From positions 1 to 15,495 of the forward strand of contig CAMLFV010000050.1 in NCBI GenBank assembly GCA_946479395.1: a stretch of 15,495 bases of DNA, read 5' to 3'. Below, piece after piece: positions 802-15,495 of the stretch. A program made the translations under genes and the position numbers. The notes beneath the pieces were generated by a model that had not been told where the DNA came from, made no database searches, and worked only from the letters and a program-made list of their open reading frames with translations. This DNA comes from an uncultured Flavobacterium sp. (GTDB lineage Bacteria; Bacteroidota; Bacteroidia; Flavobacteriales; Flavobacteriaceae). The number at the start of each line of letters is the position of its first letter. Position 1 is the stretch's first letter.

Positions 802-807
802 ATATTT

Positions 808-1584
808 ATGAAAAAGATAATTTTACCTATTGTAGTTGCCACTGTTTTGTTGACTTCCTGCGCATCAAGAGAAAAAATTGCATATTACCAGGGAATTGAC
901 AATACAGAAATTGTTAACAAAAAGTTTGAAACAAAAATCAACCCAGACGATTTGTTAATGATCCTCGTATCCGCACAAGATCCATTAGCAGTACAACCTT
1001 TTAACTTAACTACCAATTTAAGTGTTGATCCAATGAATCAAGCAGGTGGCGGACAAATGCAACAACAATTGTATTTGGTTGATGATAAAGGCTATATTGA
1101 TTTTCCTACTTTAGGAAAAATTGATGTTGGCAATAAAACAAAAGAGCAAATTGTTCAAGATTTACAAACAAAAATATCAAAGTACGTAAAAAACCCAATT
1201 GTTAATTTGCGTATTATGAACTATAAAGTAACAGTTCAGGGCGAAGTTAAAATGCCGGGAACGCACCGAGTTACATCAGAAAGAATTACGTTGTTAGAAG
1301 CAATTTCCCTATCGGGCGATTTAACAACCTACGGTAAACGTGATAATATTTTGGTTTTGCGTGAAGAAAACGGAGAGATAAAATCACACCGTGTTGATTT
1401 GACTAAAGCTGATTTCATCAACTCTGATTTTTACTATTTAAAACAAAACGATGTGGTGTATGTAGAACCAAATAAAGTAGCTGTTAATTCATCTGCAGTT
1501 GGTCCAAACATCTCAATTTATTTATCGGCAATATCTTTATTATTAACCACAGTAGCCATTATACTTACAAATTCTAACAAATAA
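808..1584 (+). CDS. Wza-like polysaccharide export lipoprotein
   Basis: 258 residues. A lipoprotein signal ends in LLTSC, giving lipidated Cys18. A polysaccharide-export (Poly_export) domain follows at about residues 45-130 (INPDDLLMI, YLVDDKGYIDFPTLGKIDVG), then an SLBB-type beta-grasp domain at about 135-220 (VTVQGEVKMPGTHRV). These proteins form an outer-membrane ring that carries capsule or exopolysaccharide out of the cell and contacts the Wzc partner in the inner membrane. The last ~25 residues hold a hydrophobic helix (about 235-254, SIYLSAISLLLTTVAIILT), in the position where E. coli Wza has its amphipathic barrel helix. The stop codon TAA shares one base with the ATG of the next gene, so translational coupling with the Wzc homologue is likely. 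The protein is shorter than Wza (about 380 residues), as expected when the extra repeated domains are absent. Confidence 0.9.
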   Translation: MKKIILPIVVATVLLTSCASREKIAYYQGIDNTEIVNKKFETKINPDDLLMILVSAQDPLAVQPFNLTTNLSVDPMNQAGGGQMQQQLYLVDDKGYIDFPTLGKIDVGNKTKEQIVQDLQTKISKYVKNPIVNLRIMNYKVTVQGEVKMPGTHRVTSERITLLEAISLSGDLTTYGKRDNILVLREENGEIKSHRVDLTKADFINSDFYYLKQNDVVYVEPNKVAVNSSAVGPNISIYLSAISLLLTTVAIILTNSNK

Positions 1585-3902
1585 TGACTGAAGAAAAAGA
1601 CAACGTTATAAACTTAAAAGAAGAATTATTTAAGTATTTAGCACATTGGAGATGGTTTGTTTTAAGTGTTTTCGTTTCGCTTATTTTAGCTTTTTTATAC
1701 CTAAAATTTACTCCCAAAAGCTACAGTGTTGCTACAAAAATTTTAATTAAAGACGAAAAAAGCAATGATTTAGCAAACCAGTTAAGTGCATTTTCAGAAA
1801 TGAGCATGCTTGGTAATTCTAAAAATAATATTGAAAACGAAGTTGAAATTCTTAAATCAAGAACTTTAATTTACAATACTTTAGATTCTTTAAACTTAAA
1901 CATTCAATATTTAGATGCATCTGAAGTCATTGAAAAAGATCTATATAAAAAATCTCCTGTTCAAGTTGTTTGGAACAACGATCAACTTACAAAAACAGTA
2001 ACTATTGAATTACACAATATTACGGCTAATGCTTTCGATGTTTCTGTAAACGATACTAAAATAGGAAACACTACTTTTGGCAAAAGTATAAACAGTGAAT
2101 ACGGATCTTTTATTGTTAATAAAACCGGTGCTTTAAACAAAGTTAGCGAACTTAAAATTAACGTTTTCCCAAAATTGCAACATGCCGAAAGTTATCAAAA
2201 AATTTTAAGCGTAGCACCGGCAAGCAAAACGTCAAGCGTTATTGATGTTTCGATTATTGATAAAACTCCCGAAAAAGCTGCCGATTTCTTAAACACGTTG
2301 GTTTATAATTATAATTTAGGTGGAATAAAAGACAAACGTTTTATATCAGAAAACACCTCTGAATTTATTTCGGATCGATTAACTTTAATTGGCACTGAAT
2401 TAGGAGATGTAGAATCGCAAGTAGAAGGCTATAAAAACGCTAATAATTTATCAGACATTGAAACCGAAGTTAAATTATATTTAGATAACCTATCATCATT
2501 TGAAAAATCGGTTTTAGAGAATGAAACCAAAATTAATATTGTTAACGATTTAATTCGTCACATCAGCAGAACAAAATACGATGATTTGGTTCCTGGAGGA
2601 TTGTTAACTGACGATGCTGGGTCTGAAAGTTTTATTCAGGAAATCAACCAATTAATCTTGGAAAAGCAAAAGTTAGCTGTTAGTGCAACGACAGAAAACA
2701 CGAATTATATTCGTTTAGAAGAGCAAATTCGTGCTTTAAAATCAAATTTACAGGCAAGTTTAAGAAGAAATTTAAGCTCGTTACAAATTGTAAAAAATGA
2801 TTACAAACGTCAGGAAAACGAAATGCAGTCAAAACTTTCTCAAGTTCCTCGTCAGGAAAAAGAATTTAGAATCATTGACCGTCAGCAAAAAGTAAAAGAA
2901 GCTTTATACTTGTTTTTACTTCAAAAACGTGAAGAAACCAATATTACGCTTGCAGCAACTGATATGAATGCAAAGGTGATTGATAAAGCTATTGCTACTG
3001 ATAAGCCTGTTGCACCAAAAACAATGATAATTTTATTGGCGGCTTTAGTTTTAGGAGCCATAATTCCTTTCATTGTAATTTACATCACAAACCTGTTAGA
3101 CACGAAAATCAAAAACAGATTTGATGTTACCGATAATTCAGATATTCCGTTTTTGGGAGATATCCCTACATCAGAATCAAGCGGTGAATTAATGGAAATA
3201 GGCAGCAGATCAAGTGCAGCCGAAGCCGTACGTATTGTTAGAACGAATTTAGATTTTATATTATCAGACAAAGCAGAAGACGAATGTAAAGTAATCTTTT
3301 TAACATCAACTATTTCTGGTGAAGGTAAAACATTTGTATCTGCAAATTTAGCTGCAACATTTTCTCTTTCGGGCAAAAAAGTTTTATTAATAGGTTTAGA
3401 TTTACGTAATCCAAAATTATATGAGTATGTAAAAGTAAATCCTTTAGGTATTTCAAATTATATAACATCAAACAATAAATCGTTGAATGATTATATATCT
3501 CCTGTTGAAGGATATGAAAACTTTGATGTATTATCATCAGGATCAATTCCTCCAAACCCAACAGAGATTTTAATGAACAAAAAAATAAAAGAGGTTTTTG
3601 ACACCTTAAAAACCCAATACGATTATATTATTGTTGATACCGCTCCGGTTAGTTTGGTTACAGATACTTTGTTAATTAGTAAATATGCTGATGCTACGAT
3701 TTATGTGGTTAGAGCCAATAAGATTGATAAAGAAATGTTAAGAATACCTAACGAATTGTACAAAGACAAAAAACTAAATAAACTTTCGTTAGTCTTAAAT
3801 GATTCTGATGTTACAAAAGGTTATGGATATGGATATGGTTATGGATATGGCGCAAAGGTTGAGCAAAAACAACTTTGGAAGAAGATACTGGGAATCAAAT
3901 AA
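1584..3902 (+). CDS. Wzc-like chain-length regulator with BY-type tyrosine kinase
   Basis: 772 residues. Order seen: N-terminal Wzz domain with a first membrane helix (about 20-41); long periplasmic section with probable coiled coils (about 240-460); second membrane helix (about 481-504); cytoplasmic kinase domain (about 545-772). The kinase has Walker A SGEGKT (578-583, Lys582), Walker A' IGLDLR (Asp606, Arg608) and Walker B IIVDTAP (Asp685). The usual first Asp of A' is Gly604 here. The tail is a run of five Gly-Tyr pairs (746-755), matching the tyrosine-rich tail these kinases autophosphorylate. Role: control of polymer length and assembly together with the Wza-like exporter encoded just before it. 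It is the last gene of the operon; a strong hairpin lies 41 bases downstream. Only the one-residue A' change departs from textbook enzymes. Confidence 0.92.
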   Translation: MTEEKDNVINLKEELFKYLAHWRWFVLSVFVSLILAFLYLKFTPKSYSVATKILIKDEKSNDLANQLSAFSEMSMLGNSKNNIENEVEILKSRTLIYNTLDSLNLNIQYLDASEVIEKDLYKKSPVQVVWNNDQLTKTVTIELHNITANAFDVSVNDTKIGNTTFGKSINSEYGSFIVNKTGALNKVSELKINVFPKLQHAESYQKILSVAPASKTSSVIDVSIIDKTPEKAADFLNTLVYNYNLGGIKDKRFISENTSEFISDRLTLIGTELGDVESQVEGYKNANNLSDIETEVKLYLDNLSSFEKSVLENETKINIVNDLIRHISRTKYDDLVPGGLLTDDAGSESFIQEINQLILEKQKLAVSATTENTNYIRLEEQIRALKSNLQASLRRNLSSLQIVKNDYKRQENEMQSKLSQVPRQEKEFRIIDRQQKVKEALYLFLLQKREETNITLAATDMNAKVIDKAIATDKPVAPKTMIILLAALVLGAIIPFIVIYITNLLDTKIKNRFDVTDNSDIPFLGDIPTSESSGELMEIGSRSSAAEAVRIVRTNLDFILSDKAEDECKVIFLTSTISGEGKTFVSANLAATFSLSGKKVLLIGLDLRNPKLYEYVKVNPLGISNYITSNNKSLNDYISPVEGYENFDVLSSGSIPPNPTEILMNKKIKEVFDTLKTQYDYIIVDTAPVSLVTDTLLISKYADATIYVVRANKIDKEMLRIPNELYKDKKLNKLSLVLNDSDVTKGYGYGYGYGYGAKVEQKQLWKKILGIK
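3819..3851 (+). repeat. Hexanucleotide tandem repeat encoding (Gly-Tyr)5
   Basis: Five consecutive GGWTAT units (GGT or GGA, then TAT) plus a final GGC, in frame in the kinase gene. They encode the tyrosine-rich C-terminal tail. Gain or loss of a unit keeps the frame and changes the number of phosphorylatable tyrosines by one. Confidence 0.9.
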
Positions 3903-3943
3903 TCAAGTTAACCAATAAAAGTCTAATCTTTTAGGAATTGTTA

Positions 3944-3986
3944 TTAATAGAAAAAGTTCGATACAATATCGAACTTTTTCTATTAA
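3944..3986. terminator. Bidirectional terminator, 20-bp perfect stem
   Basis: Inverted repeat with arms 3944-3963 and 3967-3986 and a 3-base loop (CAA); all 20 pairs match. The core GTTCGATA/TATCGAAC is flanked by five A on the left and five T on the right, so each strand reads a GC-containing hairpin into a U-run. It lies between the convergent kinase gene (ends 3902) and hmuS (ends 4022), as expected for a shared terminator. Confidence 0.85.
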
Positions 3987-4021
3987 ATTAGAATTGAATA
4001 CTATAACTATGTTTTGTTTTA

Positions 4022-5059
4022 TTAATTCAATTTTTCAACTGTTTCTCTCCAAATATCCAATTCAGGAATTCCCGGTTTGCGTTTTCCAAAGAACTGAACA
4101 ATAATATCGCCCATTTCGTTGAAAACCTCAATAGCCGTAACTACACCATCTTCGGTTGGTTTACGTACCACCCAAGTTTGTGCAATTTTGCTCATATCTA
4201 AATGCAGGTTAAAATCAGGATCCATGATGTTGTACCATTCTTGGTGCCACATAGTTTTGCGTACACGACCTGTGTGTATTTGAATGTTTCCTTTGTTACC
4301 CACAAAAACCATGATTGGTGTTTTTTCTTTTGCAACTTCTTCTAACATGGTAACAATTCCGTCTTTAGAAATTTGTTTTGCATGAAAATCAGACGGAGCC
4401 ATGCGTAAAGCTTGTGTACGGCTCACACCAAATTTGCGTAACATCATAAAAAAGTCGTGCGTATCTTTAAGGTCTAACCAAGCTTGTTTAAATCCTTCAA
4501 CATCAATTTCGTTGTCTGGTTTTTCATCTAAATTTAATTCGTAAGCTTCCGATGTTTCAAACGGTTGTTGATCTTCGCTTTTGTATTTTTCAACCAAAGC
4601 TTCAAAAGCTTCCACATTACTATCGGCAGTTAAAAATATTTTGTGGATAGCTTCGCCGTCTTTTCCAAAAAACTGAATGCTTCTTGATGTTCCGCGTGCG
4701 TTTTCTTCAATAACAGTAAAAACTTTTTTCCAGTGCGATAAAAAGATTCTTAAATCGATATCTTCGTTCACAAACAAACCTGCATGCGGATTAGAAAAAT
4801 CGGCATTTGCATAAATTCCTTTGCGTTCGTGCACGCATTCTTCGTTACGTGTTAAAGCCATTACTTTACCTAACGATTCTATTTCAGCAAGCAGTTCTTT
4901 AAATTCCGGACGTAAACGCGTTACGTTGCTACCAATGTTTGTTGCCAATAATTCCATTTCGCTAACACCTAATTTTTGTGCGGCATTGCGTATTCTTAAA
5001 TGAGGTTGCTCTTGCTTAAGCGCGTCCCATTGGGTTTTTAAACTTTCAGTTGTATTCAT
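4022..5059 (-). CDS. hmuS: Cytoplasmic heme-handling protein, HemS/ChuS/HmuS family
   Basis: 345 residues, the usual family length, with no signal peptide. The family fold is a tandem duplication; the two halves are seen at about 1-165 and 185-345. The N-terminal half carries LTRNEECVHERKGIY (His77). The C-terminal half carries NKGNIQIHTGRV, where His262 lies in the segment that supplies the axial heme ligand in ShuS/HemS/PhuS. Family members bind incoming heme in the cytoplasm and either degrade it to release iron or pass it to heme oxygenase; which applies here cannot be read from sequence. It is the last gene of the - strand heme transporter operon, 12 bases after the ATPase gene. The name means the Yersinia-type HmuS, not the unrelated CobN-like HmuS of Porphyromonas. 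Start: ATG at 5057-5059. Confidence 0.9.
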   Translation of the reverse strand: MNTTESLKTQWDALKQEQPHLRIRNAAQKLGVSEMELLATNIGSNVTRLRPEFKELLAEIESLGKVMALTRNEECVHERKGIYANADFSNPHAGLFVNEDIDLRIFLSHWKKVFTVIEENARGTSRSIQFFGKDGEAIHKIFLTADSNVEAFEALVEKYKSEDQQPFETSEAYELNLDEKPDNEIDVEGFKQAWLDLKDTHDFFMMLRKFGVSRTQALRMAPSDFHAKQISKDGIVTMLEEVAKEKTPIMVFVGNKGNIQIHTGRVRKTMWHQEWYNIMDPDFNLHLDMSKIAQTWVVRKPTEDGVVTAIEVFNEMGDIIVQFFGKRKPGIPELDIWRETVEKLN

Positions 5060-5071
5060 TGTTGATTAGAT

Positions 5072-5845
5072 TTATCCGAATAATATAATTGGTTGTTGGT
5101 TTTCGGGGTGAGGGGTAATAATGCAGGGATACTGATAAACGCGCGAAATACGTTCTTGCGTAAGTACTTTTTTAGGTTCATCGAACATTTCAATAGAACT
5201 TTTGTTCATTAAAATTAATCGGTCTGCAAATTGCGAGGCAATGTTTAAATCGTGCAAAACAACCAATGCCGAATTGTTCTGATTTGTGAACTCTTTAATT
5301 AAATGAAGCGTTTTAAACTGATGCGCCACATCAAGATTATTCAAAGGTTCATCTAACAAAAGTAGTTTGTTTTCGATGTTATTTTCAAGTTGGCCAAAAA
5401 CGCGTGCTAAATGCAAACGCTGTTTTTCACCGCCTGAAAGTTGTTCGTATTCGCGATCGGTTAAATGACTGGTTTCGACTTTTGCCATCCATTTTTCAAC
5501 AATTTCCAAATCACTTAAATCGGCTTCGTTTTTAAAGTAGGGATACCTACCCATTAGAACAATTTCGTCGTTCTTTAAGTTGATTTCGTTTGACTGATGT
5601 TGAGAAAATTTGGCACGATGCTTTGGAATTTCGCTTCGTTTGTAACTTTTAACATCTTTATCTTTAAAAGTAAATTCTTTAGCTTGATAAGGAATTTCGT
5701 TGGCAACACAGCTTAAGAAAGTCGATTTTCCGGCTCCGTTTGGTCCTACAATAGCAATTAATTCTCCTTTGTTTATCTCTAAATTAATATCTTTTAAAAG
5801 AAATCGATCTTTAACTTGAAAGCTTAAATCGTGAATTTTTATCAT
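5072..5845 (-). CDS. hmuV: Heme ABC transporter ATP-binding protein
   Basis: 257 residues, a single nucleotide-binding domain of the FecE/BtuD/HmuV class. Seen: Walker A GPNGAGKST (34-42, Lys40), Q-loop near Gln82-Gln84, signature LSGGEKQR (136-143), Walker B LLLLDEP (Asp165, Glu166) and H-loop His198 in VVLHDLN. After Walker B it reads PLNNLD where most relatives have a Thr in place of the Leu, a conservative peculiarity. It powers the permease encoded directly upstream. Its ATG overlaps the TGA stop of hmuU by four bases (5842-5845), so the two products are probably coupled in translation. All catalytic residues are present and the gene looks intact. Heme as substrate is inferred from the neighbours (HmuT, HmuS, heme receptor). 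Confidence 0.92.
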   Translation of the reverse strand: MIKIHDLSFQVKDRFLLKDINLEINKGELIAIVGPNGAGKSTFLSCVANEIPYQAKEFTFKDKDVKSYKRSEIPKHRAKFSQHQSNEINLKNDEIVLMGRYPYFKNEADLSDLEIVEKWMAKVETSHLTDREYEQLSGGEKQRLHLARVFGQLENNIENKLLLLDEPLNNLDVAHQFKTLHLIKEFTNQNNSALVVLHDLNIASQFADRLILMNKSSIEMFDEPKKVLTQERISRVYQYPCIITPHPENQQPIILFG

Positions 5846-6870
5846 TTTAATTTTCTTTTATAATTAATTAAGATCGAAATAAATACAGGCGCGCCCATAA
5901 TGGCTGTTAAAATACCAATTGGCAGTTCGGCAGGAACTACGATGGTTCTACTAATAGTATCGGCAATTAACAAAACTACTGCTCCCAAAAGCATTGATAA
6001 AGGTAGTAAAATATTGTAATTAGAATTAAAAACAAATCTTAAAATATAAGGAACTACCAATCCAACAAAGCCAATTGTTCCGTTGAAAGCCACCACGCAG
6101 CCTACCATTAACGAGACAATAATAATGATTTCGCGTTTGGTTTTTTCAATATCGAATCCTAAATGAGCAGCTTCTTTTTCGCCCAACATTAACGCATTTA
6201 AAATTTTACCTTTTGATAATAAACGAATGCTTCCTATTAATACCACGATGAAAACCAAGCAGACTTTCCACCAGTTTGATCCGGCTAAACTTCCTAAAGA
6301 CCAAAAAGTGATGTTTCTTAATTCTTCTTCGGTAGAAATATAAGTTAAGAAACCCGTTACAGCACCTGTTAATGCCGTAATAGCCACACCAGATAACAAT
6401 AAAATTAGAATGTGCGTTTTACCGTTTGATGTTGCCATTTTGTAAACAAACCACATAGTTAACAATGCACCGATAAACGCCATAACGCTTAAAAAAACAT
6501 AACGGAAAAATGCCGGTAGCAGGTGCATTACAGCAGATCCAAAAACAATTGTTAAAGCTGCGAATAATACTGCACCTGAAGTGATTCCTATTAAATCGGG
6601 TGATGCCAATGGGTTTTTAAACAAGCCTTGTAAACTTGTTCCGCTAATTGCCAAAGCAGCTCCGGTTAAAATTGCCATTAATATTCGTGGAATACGCAAT
6701 TCTATCAATACAAAAGAATCGGCTGTGTGGGTGTTTGTATTAAAATAGGTGCTTATAATTTCAAACACCGAATGGTTGAAATCATAAGCACCTAAATATA
6801 ATGCCGTTACTAAAGCAACAAGTAATACTATAAAGAACGCAACTTTGTAAACAGCAACTTTTTTCTTCAT
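5842..6870 (-). CDS. hmuU: Heme ABC transporter permease, FecCD family
   Basis: 342 residues, highly hydrophobic throughout, with about nine to ten membrane helices; the length fits the FecCD/BtuC permease family. Family signatures seen: RIPRILMAILTGAALAISG (about residues 57-75), GLFKNPLASPDLIGITSGA (about 80-98) and GTIGFVGLVVPYILR (about 263-277), the last being the region that contacts the ATPase. It forms the inner-membrane channel that receives heme from HmuT. The start codon shares one base with the hmuT stop (6870) and the end overlaps hmuV by four bases, so hmuTUV is one tightly packed unit. No broken or missing segments were seen. Family assignment is firm; heme specificity rests on context. 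Confidence 0.92.
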   Translation of the reverse strand: MKKKVAVYKVAFFIVLLVALVTALYLGAYDFNHSVFEIISTYFNTNTHTADSFVLIELRIPRILMAILTGAALAISGTSLQGLFKNPLASPDLIGITSGAVLFAALTIVFGSAVMHLLPAFFRYVFLSVMAFIGALLTMWFVYKMATSNGKTHILILLLSGVAITALTGAVTGFLTYISTEEELRNITFWSLGSLAGSNWWKVCLVFIVVLIGSIRLLSKGKILNALMLGEKEAAHLGFDIEKTKREIIIIVSLMVGCVVAFNGTIGFVGLVVPYILRFVFNSNYNILLPLSMLLGAVVLLIADTISRTIVVPAELPIGILTAIMGAPVFISILINYKRKLK

Positions 6871-7733
6871 TATTGTAATTTGTTATGTAATTCTACAACA
6901 GCGTCGCCTACACGCGGACCAAAACCTGAAAGGTATTGTCCGTCCATTGTAACAACTTTTTTGTTTTTACCTGCATTTGTTGTAGCAATACCTTCAATTT
7001 TCAATAAACCGTCCACACCGCCTAAACTTTGTAAACCTTTATCAAACATTAAAATAACGTCTGGGTTTGTAGTTAATAAAGCTTCTGGAGTTAAAGGTTT
7101 AAAATCAGTTAAAGCAGCAGCAGCATTTTCTGCACCGGCTAATTCAATCATGCTGTGTAAAGGAGTTCCTGAACCTGCAACCATTAAGTTACCTGCACCA
7201 CGAGCGTAAATAAACAACACTTTAGGTTTTTTATCGAATGCTTTAACGTTAGTCATTTTGTTAGAAATATTATCTAAAAGTGGCTGATAATTGTCTTTTT
7301 TAAGTTTTGTAGCAACTTCTGTAATTAATTTTTTACTTCCGTCTATGCTGTATTCCTGATCGATCAATACTAAAGGAATATTTGCTTTTTTCAATTGCTC
7401 GTTCAAGTTCGGGTTCACATCTTTAGTTGTTCCAAAAACAACACTTGGTTGTAATGCCAAAATGCTTTCGGCAGTAATTGAACGTACGTGACCTAAATCG
7501 GTAGCTTTTAAATCGGCAGGATATGTAGAAGTAACATCTCTACCAACAATGTTTCCGGCAACATCTAAAGCTGCCAACGTTTCAGTTACAGCTCCGTTTA
7601 AAGATACAATACGGTCTGTTTTAATTTCTGTTACAACAGTATCTGTTTCTGTAGTTGTTGTTTTGTTTTCTTCTTTTTTATTACAGCTTGCAACAACAAT
7701 TGCTAAAGCAAGTACTGAGAAAAATTTCTTCAT
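6870..7733 (-). CDS. hmuT: Heme-binding lipoprotein of the ABC transporter
   Basis: 287 residues. The signal peptide ends in IVVASC, giving lipidated Cys17, so this is an anchored lipoprotein rather than the free periplasmic protein of Proteobacteria. A Thr/Glu-rich linker (about 18-38) precedes a helical-backbone binding domain (about 40-287; RIVSLNGAVTETLAALD and the LGHVRSITAESILALQPSVV region, quoted in part). Tyr71 in TSTYP lies where HmuT/ShuT/PhuT proteins carry a heme-ligating Tyr; this alignment is from memory. Cys17 is followed by Asn-Lys-Lys-Glu-Glu, which is not a clear surface-export signal. First gene of the - strand operon. A -7 element lies about 40 bases upstream and is paired with the divergent receptor promoter, so co-regulation is likely. 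Alternatives within the fold (siderophore, cobalamin binding) are less likely given HmuS and the HmuY-like protein nearby. Confidence 0.87.
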   Translation of the reverse strand: MKKFFSVLALAIVVASCNKKEENKTTTTETDTVVTEIKTDRIVSLNGAVTETLAALDVAGNIVGRDVTSTYPADLKATDLGHVRSITAESILALQPSVVFGTTKDVNPNLNEQLKKANIPLVLIDQEYSIDGSKKLITEVATKLKKDNYQPLLDNISNKMTNVKAFDKKPKVLFIYARGAGNLMVAGSGTPLHSMIELAGAENAAAALTDFKPLTPEALLTTNPDVILMFDKGLQSLGGVDGLLKIEGIATTNAGKNKKVVTMDGQYLSGFGPRVGDAVVELHNKLQ

Positions 7734-7774
7734 AAATAGGGTTTAATAAAAGGTTTAACTTATTATTTACGGTG

Positions 7775-7782
7775 CAAAAATA
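7775..7782 (-). promoter_or_regulatory. -7 element of the hmuTUVS promoter
   Basis: On the - strand the sequence reads TATTTTTG, matching the Bacteroidota consensus TAnnTTTG, about 41 bases from the hmuT ATG. No clear -33 TTTG was found at the usual distance; a T10 tract (7787-7796) occupies the spacer instead. The element lies within the left arm of the 7769-7849 inverted repeat. Confidence 0.6.
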
Positions 7783-7835
7783 GCGGTTTTTTTTTTAAAA
7801 GAATATTTTATTTAGAACAAATAAAAATAACTTAA

Positions 7836-7843
7836 TATATTTG
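7836..7843 (+). promoter_or_regulatory. -7 element of the heme receptor promoter
   Basis: TATATTTG, a full match to TAnnTTTG, ends 31 bases before the receptor ATG at 7875, giving a short leader of about 25 bases if transcription starts some six bases downstream. No convincing -33 TTTG is visible. It sits in the right arm of the 7769-7849 inverted repeat. Confidence 0.65.
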
Positions 7844-7874
7844 CACCGTGATTTAAACAGAATAAATAAAAATA

Positions 7875-10025
7875 ATGAGAATTAAATCTTTAATTTTTTC
7901 CTTGTGTTGTGTGAACGGATTTGTAATGAATGCACAGGTTGATTCATTAGAACAAAGTATTGAAGATACAAGACTTGAAGAATTAGTTATTACAGGACAA
8001 TTTGAACCCCAGTCTATAAAGAAATCGGTACATAATGTAAGAGTTATTTCAAAAGAAGATATTAAGAATTTAGCTGCAAATAATTTAAGCGATATTTTAA
8101 ATCAGTATTTAAATATAAACGTTACTTCAAATTCACAAACAGGTAAATCATCGGCTTCATTATTTGGTTTAGATTCACAGTATTTTAAAGTTTTAGTTGA
8201 TAATATTCCAATAGTTAGCGATACCGGTTTAGGTACTAGCATTGATTTAACCCAGATTAATTTAGATAATGTTGAACGTATTGAAATTATTGAAGGAGCA
8301 ATGGGTGTAACTCATGGTGCGAATGCTGTAAGTGGTATTTTAAATATTATCACCAAAAAAAATTCTAAATACGATTGGGAATTATCTGCAAGTATTCAAG
8401 AAGAAACGGTTGGTAAAGAATATGCGTTTTTCGATAAAGGTCGCCATATACAAAACTTTAAAATAGGACATAATTTTTTAAATAACTGGTATGTGTCAGT
8501 TGGGGCAAACCGCAATGATTTTAGAGGGTTTTTTAACGGAAAAGAAGGGAAAGATTATACCGAAAATGATGGAAAAAGAGGTGTAGACCAGCTTTTAAAA
8601 GATCAAATTGCAACGAATGCAACAGTTGGGTACGAAAAGAATGATACAAGAATTTTTTATAAGTTCGATTACTTAAACGAAACGGTAACCTATTATAACG
8701 ACGTTGTAGTGCCGGTTGATAATTATCCATTTCCAACTACGTATTATTCAAATGATAAGCGTGTTCCAACAAACCGTTTTTATCATCATTTAAACTATTA
8801 CGGCAAATTGTTTAACGATTTAATTTTTAACATTTCGGTATCTCACCAAAAACAAAAACGCGAAGAAGAAACTTATAATTATTATATTTTAGATAAAGAA
8901 GAACTAAATAATAAAAAGGAAGTTTTTCACTCTAACGAAGTTTTATATTCAACGGGAACCATTACCAATTTTACAAAAAGTAAAAAGTTTGATTTTCAGG
9001 TAGGATACGAATTTGTAAATGAAAACAGTTTTGCAGATGCTTCTGCCGGAATGTTTAAAAATGAAGACAAGCAAGATGCCGATGTTAGAAAAAGAATGGA
9101 AAATTACGATGTCTTTGTTTTAGGTGAAGTAAATTTTACCGATAAGTTTTCGCTACGCGCCGGAACAAGATATTCTTTTCAATCAAGATTCGAAGATCAG
9201 CAATCCTATTCATTAGGTTTACGTTATTTATTTCCAAACGATATCGAAGCCCGTTTATCATCAGGTTTTTCTTACAGAACACCAAATTTTGCCGAATTAT
9301 ATACTTATTTTGTAGATTCAAATCATAATATTCAAGGAAATCAAAATTTAATTCCGGAACATAGTAATTATTTCGAAGCAAACGTTAAGAAAAATACCAT
9401 TTTCAAATCGGGTGTAAGTTTGTACAACAGCTTAAGTTCGGGACTTATGTTTGTTGACGATAAAATAAGTATGTTGTTAACAAGTACAGATCCAATACAA
9501 ACCTATCAATATATTAATGTTGACGATTATAAAATGTGGAATATAACTGTTGATAACCGTCTTTCATACAAAAATTGGAATTTAGCTGCAGGTTTTGCCT
9601 TAATAGGAATTTCACAGCAAATTAATACAGGTGCTTTACAAACAATTTCAGACGATAAATTTTTATACGTTTTTAACGTAAACGCCGCATTAAGTTATCA
9701 ACTTCCAAAATACCAAACACAGTTTAGTGTGTATTTTAAACACAACGGTAGTTCGCAACAATTTGTGGCTAACCCAGATGATCAATCTGAATTTTTATTA
9801 TCAAAAATCGATTCGTTTAGTTGGTTAGATGCCTCTGTAAGAAAAAGTTTTTTTAGCGGGAAATTTGAAGCAATGGTAGGTGCACGAAACATTTTAAATG
9901 TAGTCAATGTGCAAAATTCGCAAACTACAAGCATTGGTGGTAGCGCACACACATCAACCAATAATCTTATGTTGGGTTATGGTAGATCTTACTTTGTAAA
10001 ACTTACGTACAATCTTAATTTTTAA
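7875..10025 (+). CDS. TonB-dependent outer-membrane heme receptor
   Basis: 716 residues. A signal peptide (about 1-20, cleavage after MNA) is followed by a TonB-box-like segment EELVITG, a plug domain (about 45-165, ending GANAVSGILNIITKK) and a 22-strand type barrel to the C-terminal Phe (YNLNF). No SusC-type carboxypeptidase-like extension is present, so it is a classical receptor. Heme-receptor signatures: YRTP (467-470) in the FRAP position and NQNLIPE (489-495) in the NPNL position, with His484 between them, where HmuR-type receptors have a heme-coordinating His. His147 in the plug is another candidate. It faces the hmuTUVS operon divergently and is followed after 14 bases by an HmuY-like lipoprotein gene, comparable to the Porphyromonas hmuY-hmuR pair in reversed order. 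Heme rather than siderophore uptake is inferred from these motifs and neighbours. It could be called hmuR. Confidence 0.88.
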   Translation: MRIKSLIFSLCCVNGFVMNAQVDSLEQSIEDTRLEELVITGQFEPQSIKKSVHNVRVISKEDIKNLAANNLSDILNQYLNINVTSNSQTGKSSASLFGLDSQYFKVLVDNIPIVSDTGLGTSIDLTQINLDNVERIEIIEGAMGVTHGANAVSGILNIITKKNSKYDWELSASIQEETVGKEYAFFDKGRHIQNFKIGHNFLNNWYVSVGANRNDFRGFFNGKEGKDYTENDGKRGVDQLLKDQIATNATVGYEKNDTRIFYKFDYLNETVTYYNDVVVPVDNYPFPTTYYSNDKRVPTNRFYHHLNYYGKLFNDLIFNISVSHQKQKREEETYNYYILDKEELNNKKEVFHSNEVLYSTGTITNFTKSKKFDFQVGYEFVNENSFADASAGMFKNEDKQDADVRKRMENYDVFVLGEVNFTDKFSLRAGTRYSFQSRFEDQQSYSLGLRYLFPNDIEARLSSGFSYRTPNFAELYTYFVDSNHNIQGNQNLIPEHSNYFEANVKKNTIFKSGVSLYNSLSSGLMFVDDKISMLLTSTDPIQTYQYINVDDYKMWNITVDNRLSYKNWNLAAGFALIGISQQINTGALQTISDDKFLYVFNVNAALSYQLPKYQTQFSVYFKHNGSSQQFVANPDDQSEFLLSKIDSFSWLDASVRKSFFSGKFEAMVGARNILNVVNVQNSQTTSIGGSAHTSTNNLMLGYGRSYFVKLTYNLNF

Positions 10026-10039
10026 TATATAATTATATC

Positions 10040-11440
10040 ATGAAGAAGTATTTATTATTTTTTTCGTTTCTGATTTTATCAGTTTATTCTTGTAAAGATG
10101 ATGATGGAGTAGATTCAGGACCTCTTGCAGTAAGTTTTGCTGTTCCGTCTGCAAATCTTACAGAAGAAGTAACAGATGTTGTTATTTCTTTCTCAAAAGC
10201 TACATCATCAGCAGGTACTATTACACTTGGCGTGGAAGAAACAGAAGCTGAATATGGTGTTGATTACACTACAAACCCAGCAGGATCTGCATCAACATTA
10301 ACAGTTCCATTTGAAGCTGGTGTATCTAAAGTAATTTTCAAATTCAATAAATTGATTCCTGCAGTTGAAGGTGAGGTTAAAAATATAAAATATACAATTA
10401 ATGCAATCTCAACTAACTATGAGATTGCAGGAAACAATACAACACTTTTAAACTTTAACGAAACTGCTCTTACAGGTAAATCATTAGCACCGCAAGTTGG
10501 TGGTCCATCACAGGCAAATCAGGTTTATATCGATTTAAGCAGTGGTGCAATGACAACAGTTCCTCGCGTTTCTTGGGATTTAGGATTTTACTCTGGTAAC
10601 GAATTTAGAGTTATCTTGAACAATTCAGTAAAAATGTCTGCCAAGTCTTTAAACAGTACAGATCTTGGAGCAGTTGTAGCAGAAGATAACACAATGCTTA
10701 TTTCTCAAGGTTCAGGAAGTGTTAATCAAATTGACAACCCAACAGGAGTTATTACAGGAACTGCAATTGCAGAAGTATCGGCTAACGATGCAGAAAATTC
10801 TGTTTATTTGATTAATTTAGGAAGCAACCCTTCAACAACTCCGCCAACTTTAGGTTCGGTTGCTGCAGATTCAGGTGCACACAGAGGATGGAAAAAAATT
10901 AGAGTATTAAGAAGTGCTAACGGTTATAAATTACAATATGCTAATTTAGATGCTACTACTTTTAACGAAGTTATCATTGATAAAAATTCGGCTTTCAACT
11001 TTAATTTCTTTAGCTTTACTGCAAATGCAACAGTAAATGTAGAGCCGCAAAAAGGGAAGTGGGATCTTAATTTCACGACATTTACAAATATTTTCGGAGG
11101 TAACACACCTTATTTCTTCCCAGATTTTGTTGTAAATAACAGTAGAGGTGGAGCGTTGGCTTACAGTGTTTCTACAGCAGATTTTTCTTTCGCAAATTTC
11201 ACAATGGCTAATGTTGATCAATCTAAATTTATTGAAGATCAAAGAGGTATTGGTTCATTGTGGAGAGGGACAAGTGCTCCTGGACCAGACGGATTCCCAA
11301 TCTCGCAATTTGTTCTTAAAACAGATATTTTCTTTGTATTGAAAGATCCTGCAGGAAACATCTACAAAATTAAAATGACAGGTGGTGCATTACCTAATTT
11401 AGAAAGAGGTCACCCAACTTTTGTTTACTCTTTATTATAA
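10040..11440 (+). CDS. Surface lipoprotein with Calx-beta-like domain and HmuY-type heme-binding domain
   Basis: 466 residues. The signal peptide ends VYSC with Cys18, followed by Lys-Asp-Asp-Asp, matching the lipoprotein export signal that sends Bacteroidota lipoproteins to the cell surface. Residues about 28-140 resemble a Calx-beta domain (EYGVDYTTNP, then LTVPFEAG and VIFKFNKL). Residues about 155-466 look like the HmuY family: VYIDLSSG, VSWDLGFYSGNEFRVILNNS, then YKLQYANLD, KGKWDLNFTTF and a closing beta-rich part. HmuY proteins take heme from host proteins and hand it to the receptor encoded beside them. Porphyromonas HmuY is about 216 residues, so this protein is much larger. Only two His occur (281, 458); Met171, Met199 and Met219 fall in or near the segment where family members place their axial ligands. 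Last gene of the receptor operon; a strong terminator follows. Confidence 0.8.
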   Translation: MKKYLLFFSFLILSVYSCKDDDGVDSGPLAVSFAVPSANLTEEVTDVVISFSKATSSAGTITLGVEETEAEYGVDYTTNPAGSASTLTVPFEAGVSKVIFKFNKLIPAVEGEVKNIKYTINAISTNYEIAGNNTTLLNFNETALTGKSLAPQVGGPSQANQVYIDLSSGAMTTVPRVSWDLGFYSGNEFRVILNNSVKMSAKSLNSTDLGAVVAEDNTMLISQGSGSVNQIDNPTGVITGTAIAEVSANDAENSVYLINLGSNPSTTPPTLGSVAADSGAHRGWKKIRVLRSANGYKLQYANLDATTFNEVIIDKNSAFNFNFFSFTANATVNVEPQKGKWDLNFTTFTNIFGGNTPYFFPDFVVNNSRGGALAYSVSTADFSFANFTMANVDQSKFIEDQRGIGSLWRGTSAPGPDGFPISQFVLKTDIFFVLKDPAGNIYKIKMTGGALPNLERGHPTFVYSLL

Positions 11441-11460
11441 AATAAATCCTTATATTTTTG

Positions 11461-11493
11461 AAGGCTCGCACATTGTGCGAGCCTTTGTTTTTT
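11461..11493 (+). terminator. Intrinsic terminator of the heme receptor operon
   Basis: Perfect 11-bp stem, AAGGCTCGCAC (11461-11471) with GTGCGAGCCTT (11475-11485), loop ATT, followed by TGTTTTTT. It starts 21 bases after the stop of the HmuY-like gene. The tail is T-rich only on the + strand, so it is one-directional and does not serve the convergent ABC-F gene. Confidence 0.92.
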
Positions 11494-11556
11494 GGAGCTA
11501 ATTGTTAACGAAATCTTATAAAAATATTAAAAATCAGTGGTTTGTAATTTTATTTG

Positions 11557-11564
11557 TATATTTG
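11557..11564 (+). promoter_or_regulatory. Orphan -7 element with no coding sequence downstream
   Basis: TATATTTG (followed by CAAAGG) fully matches TAnnTTTG on the + strand, in the gene-free stretch between the terminator (ends 11493) and the 3' end of the convergent ABC-F gene (11606). The only downstream reading frame from an ATG (11599) ends after seven codons. No -33 TTTG is found at the expected spacing. It may be a chance match in AT-rich DNA or the start of a small or antisense RNA. Nothing else was recognised in 11494-11605. Confidence 0.3.
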
Positions 11565-11605
11565 CAAAGGAAATTCAAATAGTGACAGTGTTTGAGAAAT
11601 GATTA

Positions 11606-12556
11606 CTATTCTTCCATTTTAGAAGAAAGTTCAAACCAGCGTTCTTCTTTTTCTTCTAAAGTTTCGATTATCTTTTGCAATTCCAATCCTTTTGAGATCA
11701 TCTCATCATCAGAAACCGTTCCGTTTGAAAAACCTTCTTCGATTTGTTTTTTCTGATATTCCAGATCTTTTATTTCGCGTTCAATTTTAGAAAACTCTTT
11801 TTGTTCGTTGAAACTTAAGCCTGCTTTTTTAGGCTGATTGTCTTTCCAATTAACTTTATCTTTGGGTGTATCGTCTTTTACAGGTTCGGCAGAATCTTCG
11901 TAAATTCTAAAATCGGAATAATTGCCCGGAAAATCTTCAATTTCTCCTTCGCCCCTAAACACAAATAAATGATCTACAATTTTATCCATAAAATAACGGT
12001 CGTGCGAAACTACCAATAAACATCCCGGATAATCTAACAAGAAATTTTCCAATACATTCAACGTAACAATATCCAGATCGTTTGTAGGCTCATCTAAAAT
12101 TAAGAAATTTGGATTTTGAATTAAAACCGTACACAAATACAGTCGTTTTAATTCGCCACCACTTAATTTCTCAACAAAATCGTGTTGTTTTTTTCTATCG
12201 AATAAAAAGCGTTCTAACAACTGCCCTGCCGAAATGGTTCTGCCTTTTGTCAACGGAATGTATTCGCCATATTCTTTAATAATATCAATAACTTTTTGCT
12301 CAGGTTTCGGGTTGATACCGCTTTGGGTGTAATAACCAACCTTAATGGTATCACCAATGACCACTTTGCCAGAATCGGGCTGAAGCGTTTGGGTTAGTAT
12401 GTTTAAAAAGGTAGATTTTCCGGTTCCGTTTTTGCCGATGATACCAATACGTTCGCCACGATTAAACAGGTAATCAAAGTTTTTTAAGATGATTTTATCG
12501 TTAAAAGATAACGACACATTGTGCATTTCAATGACTTTAGAGCCCATGCGTTCCAT
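11606..12556 (-). CDS. Uup-like ABC-F ATPase, C-terminal half (second NBD plus C-terminal coiled coil)
   Basis: 316 residues from the first ATG after an in-frame TAG. It is the second half of an ABC-F protein: NBD2 with Walker A GKNGTGKST (41-49), signature LSGGELKR (131-138), Walker B FLILDEPTND (Asp155, Glu156) and the switch His in SHDRYFMD, then a charged C-terminal region with a predicted coiled coil (about 250-316) as in Uup, where it contributes to nucleic-acid binding. It is in the same frame as the N-terminal half, from which only the stop and three codons (Glu-Ile-Asn) separate it. In intact relatives the ERMGSKVIE segment directly follows the linker, so this ATG is internal to the original gene. 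TAGGAG lies six bases before the ATG and could serve as a ribosome-binding site. It may be made by reinitiation, by readthrough of the stop, or not at all. Confidence 0.75.
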   Translation of the reverse strand: MERMGSKVIEMHNVSLSFNDKIILKNFDYLFNRGERIGIIGKNGTGKSTFLNILTQTLQPDSGKVVIGDTIKVGYYTQSGINPKPEQKVIDIIKEYGEYIPLTKGRTISAGQLLERFLFDRKKQHDFVEKLSGGELKRLYLCTVLIQNPNFLILDEPTNDLDIVTLNVLENFLLDYPGCLLVVSHDRYFMDKIVDHLFVFRGEGEIEDFPGNYSDFRIYEDSAEPVKDDTPKDKVNWKDNQPKKAGLSFNEQKEFSKIEREIKDLEYQKKQIEEGFSNGTVSDDEMISKGLELQKIIETLEEKEERWFELSSKMEE

Positions 12557-12565
12557 GTTGATCTC

Positions 12566-12568
12566 CTA
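12566..12568 (-). other. In-frame TAG splitting the ABC-F gene
   Basis: Reading the - strand: GAC TAG GAG ATC AAC ATG GAA CGC. The reading frame is unchanged on both sides, so no insertion or deletion is needed; one substitution (for example from TTG, CAG, AAG or GAG) explains it. It falls between the linker and NBD2. A sequencing error at a single base cannot be excluded from the sequence alone. Confidence 0.9.
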
Positions 12569-13468
12569 GTCTAACTGGTGTTCTTTACGGCGTGAATTGG
12601 CTTTGTCTTTAATTACATTAAAATCGTCTTGACGTGATTTTGACTTGGTAGTACGTGCTTTCGGTTGGCGACGCATCCATTCCAATTCTTTTACAAACAA
12701 GTTTTTTGCTTTATCAATCGATGCATTTTCAGATGCAATTCGCTCTTCTTTCTTTTGCAGATAGTACGAATAATTTCCTTTGTATTGATATATTTTTCCG
12801 TTATCCAATTCAATGATTTCGTTACAAACTCGCTCTAAAAAGAAACGGTCGTGCGTTACCATGAACAACGTAATATTTTCTTTTGCAAAGTAATCTTCCA
12901 GCCATTCAATCATTTCCAGATCCAAGTGGTTGGTAGGCTCATCTAAAATCAACAAATCGGGTTTATTAATCAAAATAATTGCCAATGCTAGGCGTTTACG
13001 CTGCCCACCAGACATGTTTTTAACCTTTGCCTTTAAATCTTCGAGTTTTAATTTAAAGAGAATCTGCTTGTACTGTGTTTCAAAATCCCAGGCGTTGAAT
13101 TGATCCATTTGATCGAACGCCAATTGATATTCCTCTTGATCGTCCATGTTTTCCAACGCTTTTTCGTATCGTTCAATAACCTTCAAAATTTCGTTATCTG
13201 ATGCAAAAATGCTTTCTTCAACCGTTAATTCGTCTTGTAAATTAGGTTCTTGCGATAAAAACTCCATACGGATACCTTTTCTGATCACCACCTGACCCGT
13301 ATCCGGAAAATCCAATCCGTTGATAATACTTAATATGGTTGATTTTCCCGTTCCGTTTTTAGCTACAAAGGCAATTTTCTGGTCTTTGTTGATACCGAAC
13401 GATACGCCTTCAAACAGCGTACGCGCCCCGAAAGATTTTGATATATTTTCTACTGAAAGATAGTTCAT
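12566..13468 (-). CDS. Uup-like ABC-F ATPase, N-terminal half (first NBD plus linker), ended by in-frame TAG
   Basis: 300 residues, ending in an in-frame amber codon. NBD1 shows Walker A AKNGTGKST (36-44; Ala36 replaces the usual first Gly), signature MSGGQRKR (152-159), Walker B LLILDEPTNHLD (Asp176, Glu177) and switch His206 in THDRFF. Residues about 237-300 are the charged linker (ELEWMRRQPKARTTKSKSRQ, 261-280) that in ABC-F proteins reaches toward the ribosomal P-site tRNA. ABC-F proteins act on ribosomes or, for Uup, in DNA repair and late ribosome assembly. Start: ATG at 13466-13468, giving the family N-terminus MNYLSVENISKSFG. A longer reading from TTG at 13489 is rejected because that TTG is part of the promoter. 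Together with the downstream half it makes 620 codons, normal for the family, so one nonsense codon is the only visible damage. Confidence 0.8.
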   Translation of the reverse strand: MNYLSVENISKSFGARTLFEGVSFGINKDQKIAFVAKNGTGKSTILSIINGLDFPDTGQVVIRKGIRMEFLSQEPNLQDELTVEESIFASDNEILKVIERYEKALENMDDQEEYQLAFDQMDQFNAWDFETQYKQILFKLKLEDLKAKVKNMSGGQRKRLALAIILINKPDLLILDEPTNHLDLEMIEWLEDYFAKENITLFMVTHDRFFLERVCNEIIELDNGKIYQYKGNYSYYLQKKEERIASENASIDKAKNLFVKELEWMRRQPKARTTKSKSRQDDFNVIKDKANSRRKEHQLD

Positions 13469-13486
13469 GATTGATTTCTTGAAGCA

Positions 13487-13494
13487 CAAAAGTA
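13487..13494 (-). promoter_or_regulatory. -7 element of the ABC-F promoter
   Basis: On the - strand TACTTTTG, a full TAnnTTTG match, lies 18 bases before the ATG at 13468, giving a leader of roughly a dozen bases. Its last three bases are the TTG that would otherwise look like a start codon. No -33 TTTG was found. Confidence 0.6.
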
Positions 13495-13548
13495 CGTTTT
13501 TTTGGCTTATGAATATGATGACTTATGTATTGAAACTGATATTGTATA

Positions 13549-14082
13549 TTAAAACAAGCGGTAACCAAATTTTAGTCGAAGTACAGGTGCAACATCTCCG
13601 TAAGTAGTATCAAAATCGTACATATAACCTAAACCAATGTTGGTATTCAATGTGAATTTTGTACCTAAACTACGTTGCAATCCCCAATGAATATCGGTTA
13701 AAAGAGCTTTGTTTAGCGCAAGACTATTAGGATGTCCAAAACTGTATTTTGTTTGTAAACCTACATAGTTTCCGGCATTATTGGCATTATTCTTCTCTTT
13801 TGCTCCGCGTTTTTCACGGTTGTACATCCATTTTAATTCTGTAGAAACAAATGGAACAGGATCAAGCAAATAAAAACTATAAGTACTTTTATTGTGATCC
13901 ACTTCCATTCCCACACCTAAACCGGCTGCACTTTCTAAGAGTAAGCTTTTACCCAACGGAAGTTCGTAGGAAAATTCTGCTCCTTGCAAACCTAAACTTA
14001 CTTTACCAACTTTTTCTAATGTAGATTGTGCAAAAACTGATGCATTTGCTACTAAAAGTGCTGCTAACAAACATTTTTTCAT
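13549..14082 (-). CDS. Small outer-membrane beta-barrel protein, function unknown
   Basis: 177 residues. A signal peptide (1-18, cleavage after SVFA before Gln19) leaves a mature protein of about 159 residues with alternating short hydrophobic strands (KVSLGLQGAEFSYELPLG, LLLESAAGLGVGMEV, YVGLQTKYSF, FTLNTNIGLGYMYDF, PVLRLKFGYRLF) and a C-terminal Phe, the pattern of a small eight-strand outer-membrane barrel inserted by BAM. A charged, Asn-rich segment near residues 90-107 would be an external loop. I do not recognise a specific family or ligand. It appears to be a single-gene unit: a possible promoter lies upstream (14109-14140), and the next gene downstream has its own promoter. No terminator was seen in 13490-13548. 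Confidence 0.75.
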   Translation of the reverse strand: MKKCLLAALLVANASVFAQSTLEKVGKVSLGLQGAEFSYELPLGKSLLLESAAGLGVGMEVDHNKSTYSFYLLDPVPFVSTELKWMYNREKRGAKEKNNANNAGNYVGLQTKYSFGHPNSLALNKALLTDIHWGLQRSLGTKFTLNTNIGLGYMYDFDTTYGDVAPVLRLKFGYRLF

Positions 14083-14108
14083 GGTGTTTTATTTTTTTAT
14101 TGAGCTGG

Positions 14109-14140
14109 CAAAGGTCGGCTTTTAAAATAAAACTCACAAA
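14109..14140 (-). promoter_or_regulatory. Possible promoter of the barrel-protein gene
   Basis: On the - strand a TTTG (14137-14140) is followed after 20 bases by GACCTTTG (14109-14116). The spacing fits the Bacteroidota -33/-7 arrangement, and the -7 box matches the TTTG half but has GA in place of TA. It lies 27 bases from the ATG at 14082. Confidence 0.4.
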
Positions 14141-14156
14141 CACTAACAGGTATTGC

Positions 14157-14182
14157 TAAAAAAGGTTGCTGTAAAGCAACCT
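14157..14182 (-). terminator. Intrinsic terminator of mltG
   Basis: Read on the - strand: an 8-bp stem AGGTTGCT/AGCAACCT (14175-14182 and 14163-14170), 4-base loop, then TTTTTT. It begins two bases after the mltG stop, so the hairpin starts almost at the stop codon. Confidence 0.85.
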
Positions 14183-14184
14183 CT

Positions 14185-15222
14185 CTATTTTATATTATTC
14201 TTTGTTAACCAAGCGGTATATTTATCTCGGTTTGCAGCGTGTTCTTCAATAGTACTTGCAAATTCGTGATAACCCATGCGTTCTACACTTGCGCAAAAAT
14301 AAATGTAATTGTGCTTTTCCGCATTCAGTACGGCATCTATCGAGCTTTCATCGGGCATAGCGATTAATCCTTTTGGAACACCTTTGTATTTGTAGGTATT
14401 AAACGGATGATCTAAAACCAAATCTTTTAAATAAACGCGTTTTATAACTTGTTCAAAATCGTTACTCAAAGCTTTCTTAGCATAAACAACTGTTGGATCT
14501 GCCTGTAAAAGCATGTCTTTGTTCAATCTGTTTAAGTAAGCACCTGCAACTTTTGGGCGTTCATCTACTTTTGCTGTTTCTTTTTGAACAATTGCTGCCA
14601 ATGAAGAAACTTCAACCGGAGATAAATTCAATGCTTGTGCTTTTGCTTTGCGTTCATCATTCCAAAATCGAACATACGATTTTTGCAATAAATTTCTAAT
14701 TTTTAAAGGCGTACTATTCCAATAAACTTCATAGGTATTTGGCATGCACATTGCCAAAACATTGTCTTTAGTCATACCCATTTCCTGTAAAAAAGCAGGT
14801 TCTGTGAATGACTGATACAAATCGGCAACATCGGGTTCTACTTGAGATGCAATCCGTTGTAACAATTTTTGCAATGTTTCCTGATTATTAAAAGTCAGCT
14901 TAACCGGAACATTATGACGTAACGATTTTATGATTCGGTAATTATTGTATCCGTTTTCAATCAAATATCTTCCCGGTTCAACCGTAGCCGATTCTCCTAA
15001 TTTAGAAAACAAACCTTGTAACGATTCATAATCTTTTACATATTTCTTCAATGAATCTTGAACCTGTGCATGCGTTGCATCGGTTGGAACAAGAATATAG
15101 ATGCTTTTTTCTGAAAAATTGGTGTTTGCCGTAAACGCTTTTCGGTACAACATGTATCCGAATATTAATGCTACAAAAACTCCGAGAATGGAAACGTAGC
15201 TTACTAATTTATTAATTTTCAT
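14185..15222 (-). CDS. mltG: Endolytic murein transglycosylase MltG
   Basis: 345 residues, the usual length for the YceG/MltG family. One N-terminal membrane anchor (about residues 7-26) places the rest in the periplasm. A LysM-like part (about 75-110, VEPGRYLIENGYNNYRIIKS) precedes the catalytic domain: MPNTYEVYW (160-168), AAIVQKETAKVDERPKVAGA (209-228) with Glu215 aligning to the catalytic Glu218 of E. coli MltG, NRL, and LLQADPTVVYA (238-248), plus the closing YHEFA. It cleaves nascent glycan strands and is thought to end peptidoglycan chain growth. Its ATG lies inside the end of the upstream acetyltransferase gene (11-base overlap, 15212-15222), so both are probably co-transcribed from a promoter outside the window. 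A terminator follows directly. All family motifs are intact. Confidence 0.95.
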   Translation of the reverse strand: MKINKLVSYVSILGVFVALIFGYMLYRKAFTANTNFSEKSIYILVPTDATHAQVQDSLKKYVKDYESLQGLFSKLGESATVEPGRYLIENGYNNYRIIKSLRHNVPVKLTFNNQETLQKLLQRIASQVEPDVADLYQSFTEPAFLQEMGMTKDNVLAMCMPNTYEVYWNSTPLKIRNLLQKSYVRFWNDERKAKAQALNLSPVEVSSLAAIVQKETAKVDERPKVAGAYLNRLNKDMLLQADPTVVYAKKALSNDFEQVIKRVYLKDLVLDHPFNTYKYKGVPKGLIAMPDESSIDAVLNAEKHNYIYFCASVERMGYHEFASTIEEHAANRDKYTAWLTKNNIK

Positions 15223-15495
15223 TTAATGGATTTATTAATTGATACAGCGTTTCATCGACATATACAGAACCAACTTTGTTCCAATGTTTTTTTACTCCGA
15301 TTTTTTGAAATCCAAAATTAGAAAAAAGCTTAATACTTGCACTATTTGTTTCGGCAACATTAACAAATATTTGATGCACGTTTAAAACCTGAAACGCGTA
15401 ACCTAAAAGTAGTTTTACCGATTCACTGCCAAAACCTTTGTTTCTTTCGGAAGGATTTTTAACAACAATGCCCAATCCTACCCTGCTGTTTTTAG
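15212..15495 (-). CDS. GNAT-family N-acetyltransferase (RimJ/RimL-like), C-terminal part
   Basis: Partial gene: the frame stays open to the window edge (residues KNSRVG precede the first possible start), so the 5' end is outside. The visible ~94 residues are the C-terminal half of a GNAT fold: the strand RVGLGIVV, the acetyl-CoA pyrophosphate loop RNKGFGSE (the Arg-x-x-Gly-x-Gly motif), helix VKLLLGYAFQVLNVHQ, the strand IFVNVAETNSASIKLFSNFGF and the closing segment FQKIGVKKHWNKVG, typical of RimJ/RimL-like acetyltransferases of ribosomal or other small-molecule amines. The substrate cannot be deduced. The TTG at 15475 is not the start because the fold would lose its N-terminal strands. It overlaps the start of mltG by 11 bases, implying a common transcript. 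Confidence 0.85.
   Translation of the reverse strand, partial: KNSRVGLGIVVKNPSERNKGFGSESVKLLLGYAFQVLNVHQIFVNVAETNSASIKLFSNFGFQKIGVKKHWNKVGSVYVDETLYQLINPLNEN

Follow-up and report, generated by a model that had tools for sequence, protein, structure and literature searches.

The window, the whole 15,495-nucleotide stretch of DNA analysed here, holds an ABC-F gene, normally a single gene for an ATPase of a ribosome-associated type, whose frame is interrupted by one in-frame stop codon between its two ATPase domains. In our judgement this is probably a regular ABC-F gene (Uup/EttA kind), present once in each relative checked, that was recently hit by a nonsense change in this strain; that the stop is real and recent, and that this strain has one copy of the gene, we infer. 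Taken broadly, the interruption is probably either an ordinary nonsense mutation that arose very recently or a sequence error.

Anatomy and family of the interrupted gene

The frame running from 13468 to 11606 has a single internal stop, the TAG at codon 301, and ends in a natural stop that is also TAG (Table 1). The N-terminal half, the internal TAG, the three codons behind it, the ATG and the C-terminal half all share one reading frame, and the plus strand of 11606-13468 is full of stops. Compared with seven intact relatives of the same length, the window gene has no indels. A first-pass annotation of this DNA had described two intact halves in the same frame, together of normal length (620 codons) and free of extra frameshifts or stops, and the frame reading and the comparison with relatives bear this out. 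The coordinates that it gave for the gene (11606..13468) are correct; the strand, which it left out, is minus.

Table 1. Features of the interrupted ABC-F gene (positions in the window)
Feature	Position	Strand	Size	Basis
ABC-F frame, whole	13468 to 11606	minus	621 codons including the natural stop; 620-codon protein frame	
N-terminal half: first ATPase domain and interdomain linker	12569..13468	minus	300 codons	ORF and Pfam
In-frame TAG, codon 301 of the ABC-F frame	12566..12568	minus		frame reading
Three sense codons from the TAG to the next in-frame ATG	12557..12565	minus		frame reading
In-frame ATG, possible restart, codon 305	12554..12556	minus		ORF list; Met in 113/113 related loci
C-terminal half: second ATPase domain and C-terminal domain	11606..12556	minus	316 aa	ORF and Pfam

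The N-terminal half matches ABC_tran and ABC_tran_Xtn and the C-terminal half ABC_tran and ABC_tran_CTD, each above its Pfam cut-off. The place of codon 301 in the fold was taken from the Pfam limits and from alignments to EttA chains. Since the ABC_tran_Xtn match ends at residue 297 and, in an intact relative aligned to EttA chains, the residues beyond 301 lead into the second ATPase domain, the earlier placement of the sole interruption, at the junction of the linker and the second ATPase domain, is right. Each half shows motifs that we take to be Walker A, signature and Walker B, as had been noted before. An ABC-F protein has two ATPase domains and a linker in one chain; the intact orthologues do, whereas in the window the domains sit in two ORFs parted by the TAG. 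On sequence grounds, the two ORFs are a single gene cut once, because all 113 related loci have an open frame with a sense codon at codon 301 and the collinear region of a related genome, G131, carries the gene intact.

The family was assigned with the help of P0124, an intact protein of 620 aa encoded on a 2,653-base contig and probably from the same species as the window. It scores 402.8 bits against the ABC-F model NF000355 (cut-off 380), whose name includes 'ribosomal protection-like'; the window halves alone reach 217.6 and 202.7, both below that cut-off. With two ABC_tran domains, an ABC_tran_Xtn linker and a C-terminal ABC_tran_CTD domain, the architecture is that of Uup/YfmR, and in this respect the earlier label 'Uup-like' stands; it does not stand by the curated model, since P0124 falls well below the cut-off of the Uup equivalog NF050005 (433.1 bits versus 900), and the window chain differs further in being cut after the linker. 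The highest-scoring curated models for P0124 are those of EttA, but both cut-offs are missed (NF008775, 482 versus 599; TIGR03719, 476.9 versus 806.75) and a C-terminal domain of P0124 extends past the EttA match. Among solved structures, the intact protein is closest to EttA chains and then to a Uup chain. One Paenibacillus Uup is reported to give pleuromutilin resistance when expressed in E. coli (PMC6723617).

Codon 301 in relatives and the age of the stop

The window comes from a flavobacterium of the Paenimyroides type; close relatives found by protein search are named as Paenimyroides, Flavobacterium or Myroides. Among 113 related loci, of which five are partial and which reduce to 108 distinct sequences because some genomes are repeated, codon 301 is always a sense codon that encodes a single amino acid, and codon 305 always encodes Met. 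Reading this codon in relatives had been proposed in the first-pass annotation; the outcome is that the stop is peculiar to the window. In a scan of the genus, 378 of 398 genomes had a match at E 1e-250 or better, and the matches listed were checked for internal stops. A recurrent in-frame TAG was considered, as G400 and G267 were flagged, and rejected: among the matches listed, both flags fall where the gene naturally ends. The remaining 20 genomes comprise one with a broken gene (G117), eight with part of the gene, several of these parts beginning at the first bases of a contig, eight with paralogues only and three with nothing at E 1e-85. In G117 (G117:C16:2994-4848), the same gene lies in two overlapping pieces in different frames, parted near codon 446, and the second piece has two stops. 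Breakage of this ABC-F gene in assemblies is rare, yet not unique, and the G117 break is elsewhere in the gene.

Split forms were also sought among database proteins. Twenty-two of the 120 matches listed are of 330 aa or less, and 14 of these 22 begin at the codon-305 Met; the candidates were dropped, as contig ends are indistinguishable from real breaks. One short protein, P0267 (315 aa), consists of the C-terminal half only and comes from an 86-kb contig; its first residue is the Met that matches the possible restart ATG of the window. The open-licence literature, judged by titles and the starts of abstracts among the matches listed, yielded no account of split or nonsense ABC-F genes.

At the level of the locus, positions 4 to 15493 of the window are collinear with G131:C67 in one alignment of 15,528 columns at 90%, and at the same place G131 has the ABC-F gene as a single intact 620-aa ORF. 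A recent pseudogene should have an intact copy at the same locus in a close relative, and G131 provides it; P0124 adds an intact protein near-identical to the window halves. Close ABC-F orthologues number one each in G131, G001 and G334 (97-99% protein identity), and further ABC-F matches in these genomes are at 29-37% identity. The window gene is probably the regular ABC-F gene and not a spare copy, because the intact gene at this place in G131 is that genome's only close orthologue.

Several comparisons bear on the age of the stop. Besides the stop, P0124 differs from the window halves at codons 284 and 300 only, so the C-terminal half shows zero residue changes; the same would be expected if this half were still in use, which counts against a reading as loss. 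Set beside the seven intact relatives, the window carries private bases at 25 positions, and 21 of these leave no residue that is private to the window. The other four alter codons 284, 300, 301 and 537; at 537, P0124 has the residue of the window. The ratio of silent to altering codon differences between the window and G131 is 45:5 in the N-terminal half and 51:6 in the C-terminal half. These codon ratios point to strong constraint on both halves, and the C-terminal half was constrained until very recently, or still is.

The main rival to a recent nonsense mutation is a sequence error, in which the gene is in truth intact and the stop arose in sequencing or assembly, or comes from a minority path through a sample of mixed strains; we regard this as unlikely. 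What speaks for it, apart from the existence of P0124 as a near-identical intact protein, is that the private altering codons 284, 300 and 301 fall within 18 codons while all other residues equal those of P0124. Three altering changes relative to P0124 would lie so close with a probability of 0.002 if changes were uniform, and any three of the four private altering sites with a probability of 0.008 in the DNA comparison, both values being post hoc. On the other hand, the private bases overall show no significant clustering (5 in 60 bases, p 0.11), the changes are substitutions, where long-read errors are typically indels, and the other 12 genes of the window, two of which are truncated by its ends, match G131 at full length. 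Residues 284 and 300 are well conserved across the 113 loci: 97 agree at 284, and all have Glu or Gln at 300. The cluster at 284, 300 and 301 would fit a local error patch, or a relaxed or altered constraint on the end of the linker after the split. A short palindrome-driven double change at codons 300-301 was considered and dropped, since an arm of three bases is too short to argue from. The first-pass annotation had proposed that a sister with a sense codon at this position would mean an assembly error; such a sister exists in P0124, but alone it is no proof of one.

Consequences of the stop

We return to a recent nonsense mutation as the preferred reading. Among the explanations first offered (a recent nonsense mutation, a two-subunit ABC-F and translational readthrough) it fits best, given the near-identical intact protein, the intact G131 locus and the absence of further decay. 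Like known recent nonsense pseudogenes, the window gene has one stop, no other decay and intact close relatives; it differs from them in the possible restart ATG closely after the stop. The proposed course is as follows. The nonsense change, which falls where the interdomain linker ends, would be confined to this strain, and the main product would be a protein of 300 residues with one ATPase domain and the linker. ABC-F function would probably be lost, because the second ATPase domain is missing from this product, and the loss would probably be tolerated, as several ABC-F paralogues are present in relatives. Ribosomes restarting at the ATG, nine bases further on, may still make a little of the C-terminal half. 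In E. coli, cold sensitivity and altered polysome profiles are both reported to be absent when a single ABC-F gene, or uup together with ettA, is disrupted (PMC6723617); B. subtilis is reported to suffer a dramatic growth defect when YfmR/Uup and EF-P are both lost (PMC11381351). Loss of the ABC-F in this flavobacterium would probably be tolerated. If the stop is a plain nonsense mutation, it adds one more case of sporadic loss of a housekeeping-type ABC-F.

The first-pass annotation also suggested a two-subunit ABC-F. In this reading, translation would end at the TAG at the domain boundary, some ribosomes would restart at the conserved Met, and the two halves, made from one message, would assemble and cooperate; we think this quite improbable. 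In its favour are a C-terminal half that is of full length and constrained, and the in-frame ATG nine bases past the stop with an A at -3. An A at this position is reported to favour initiation in Flavobacterium johnsoniae, as are adenines at -12 and -13 (PMC6847099), which the ATG at 12554-12556 does not have. At native E. coli gene pairs, reinitiation is reported to fall steeply with distance, by 40-80% at +14 nt, without being abolished (PMC10666635). Some restart at the ATG is plausible, because the stop-to-start distance here is +9 nt with an A at -3 and reinitiation in E. coli is partly kept at +14 nt.

Other evidence weighs against a working two-chain protein. An AGGAG precedes the restart ATG, but it means little: it is probably irrelevant to restarting, since Bacteroidia ribosomes are reported to fail to recognise Shine-Dalgarno sequences (PMC9976891). 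The RNA around the ATG is no less folded than shuffled sequences (z 0.03). Because the Met, present in 113 of 113 relatives, and its distance from codon 301 are set by the conserved protein sequence, they reflect no adaptation and do not show selection for restarting. Among the matches listed, no relative turned out to have a proven split, the 14 of 22 short proteins that start at the Met being explicable by contig ends or gene callers. The ATG nine bases after the stop leaves some room for the two-subunit option, for which the analysis gave no positive evidence. Compared with termination-reinitiation gene pairs, the window halves share the same strand and products that elsewhere are parts of one complex; their stop-to-start distance is +9 nt, where the start of such pairs is expected at the stop or a few bases from it. 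In such pairs, overlaps of 4 or 1 bases are reported to be by far the commonest (PMC10666635), whereas conserved codons within one gene fix the distance in the window. A point against the nonsense reading is that the stop falls at the domain boundary and near an in-frame ATG. This position is somewhat special, in that a Met lies within four codons downstream of 51 of 619 codons (8%) and boundary codons make up 14 of 619 (2%), but the finding was picked for that position. Were both halves made and cooperating, they would show how one step can split a tandem ATPase, and would also amount to a natural test of Bacteroidota reinitiation over a 9-base gap without Shine-Dalgarno pairing.

We also weighed whether the window holds a decaying second copy, moved from an original locus that keeps an intact one, and find this very hard to credit. 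The idea was prompted by G001, where the ABC-F gene lies elsewhere and the haem-uptake block is inverted; the orthologue is likewise elsewhere in G023 and G334, and in all three it lies next to genes of NUDIX-domain and pyrE-like type, which in G001 have NUDIX and phosphoribosyltransferase domains by Pfam. An extra decaying copy was dropped in view of G131, whose only close orthologue is intact and lies in the arrangement of the window.

Programmed readthrough, of which the first-pass annotation had raised the readthrough, or TAG reassignment is next to inconceivable: the frame is open on both sides of the single TAG, but TAG is the ordinary terminator of two genes of the window, this one and mltG, the stop is conserved in none of the 113 loci, where codon 301 is always sense, and the two TAG flags of the genus scan mark the natural end among the matches listed.

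Gene order and neighbouring sequences

The window opens with an epimerase-like gene and two capsule-export-type genes (Poly_export; Wzz and tyrosine-kinase type), followed by a haem-uptake block of HemS, ABC ATPase, permease, binding protein, TonB receptor and HmuY. After this block come the ABC-F gene, an outer-membrane-type protein without a Pfam match, a YceG/MltG protein and an acetyltransferase-like gene; names of genes lacking a Pfam match were assigned by eye. The order differs among close relatives (window 4012-13547; L133; L119), and in G001 the inverted haem-uptake block lies next to the outer-membrane gene. By these alignments the locus is rearranged within this group, and the rearrangement would be older than the stop, unless the region was exchanged between lineages, because G131 has the order of the window and not the stop. 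A chimeric contig was considered and dropped, as G131 has the same order and one intact copy.

A 68-base piece over the 5' end of the ABC-F gene is repeated about 1.6 kb upstream of the gene in G023 and G198 (L120, 15923-15990 and 17629-17696; L152, 6207-6274 and 7911 onward), the copies being 91-93% identical to the piece in the window. Between the copies in G023 are two small ORFs, one without a Pfam match and one with a weak, sub-cut-off match to DUF922. The repeat looks like a small insertion carrying a copy of the gene's 5' end. Elsewhere in the window (7875-11440), the TonB haem receptor and HmuY are 71% and 88% identical to their G131 counterparts, where the other window proteins reach 94-99.7%; this divergence may reflect diversifying selection or local gene exchange.
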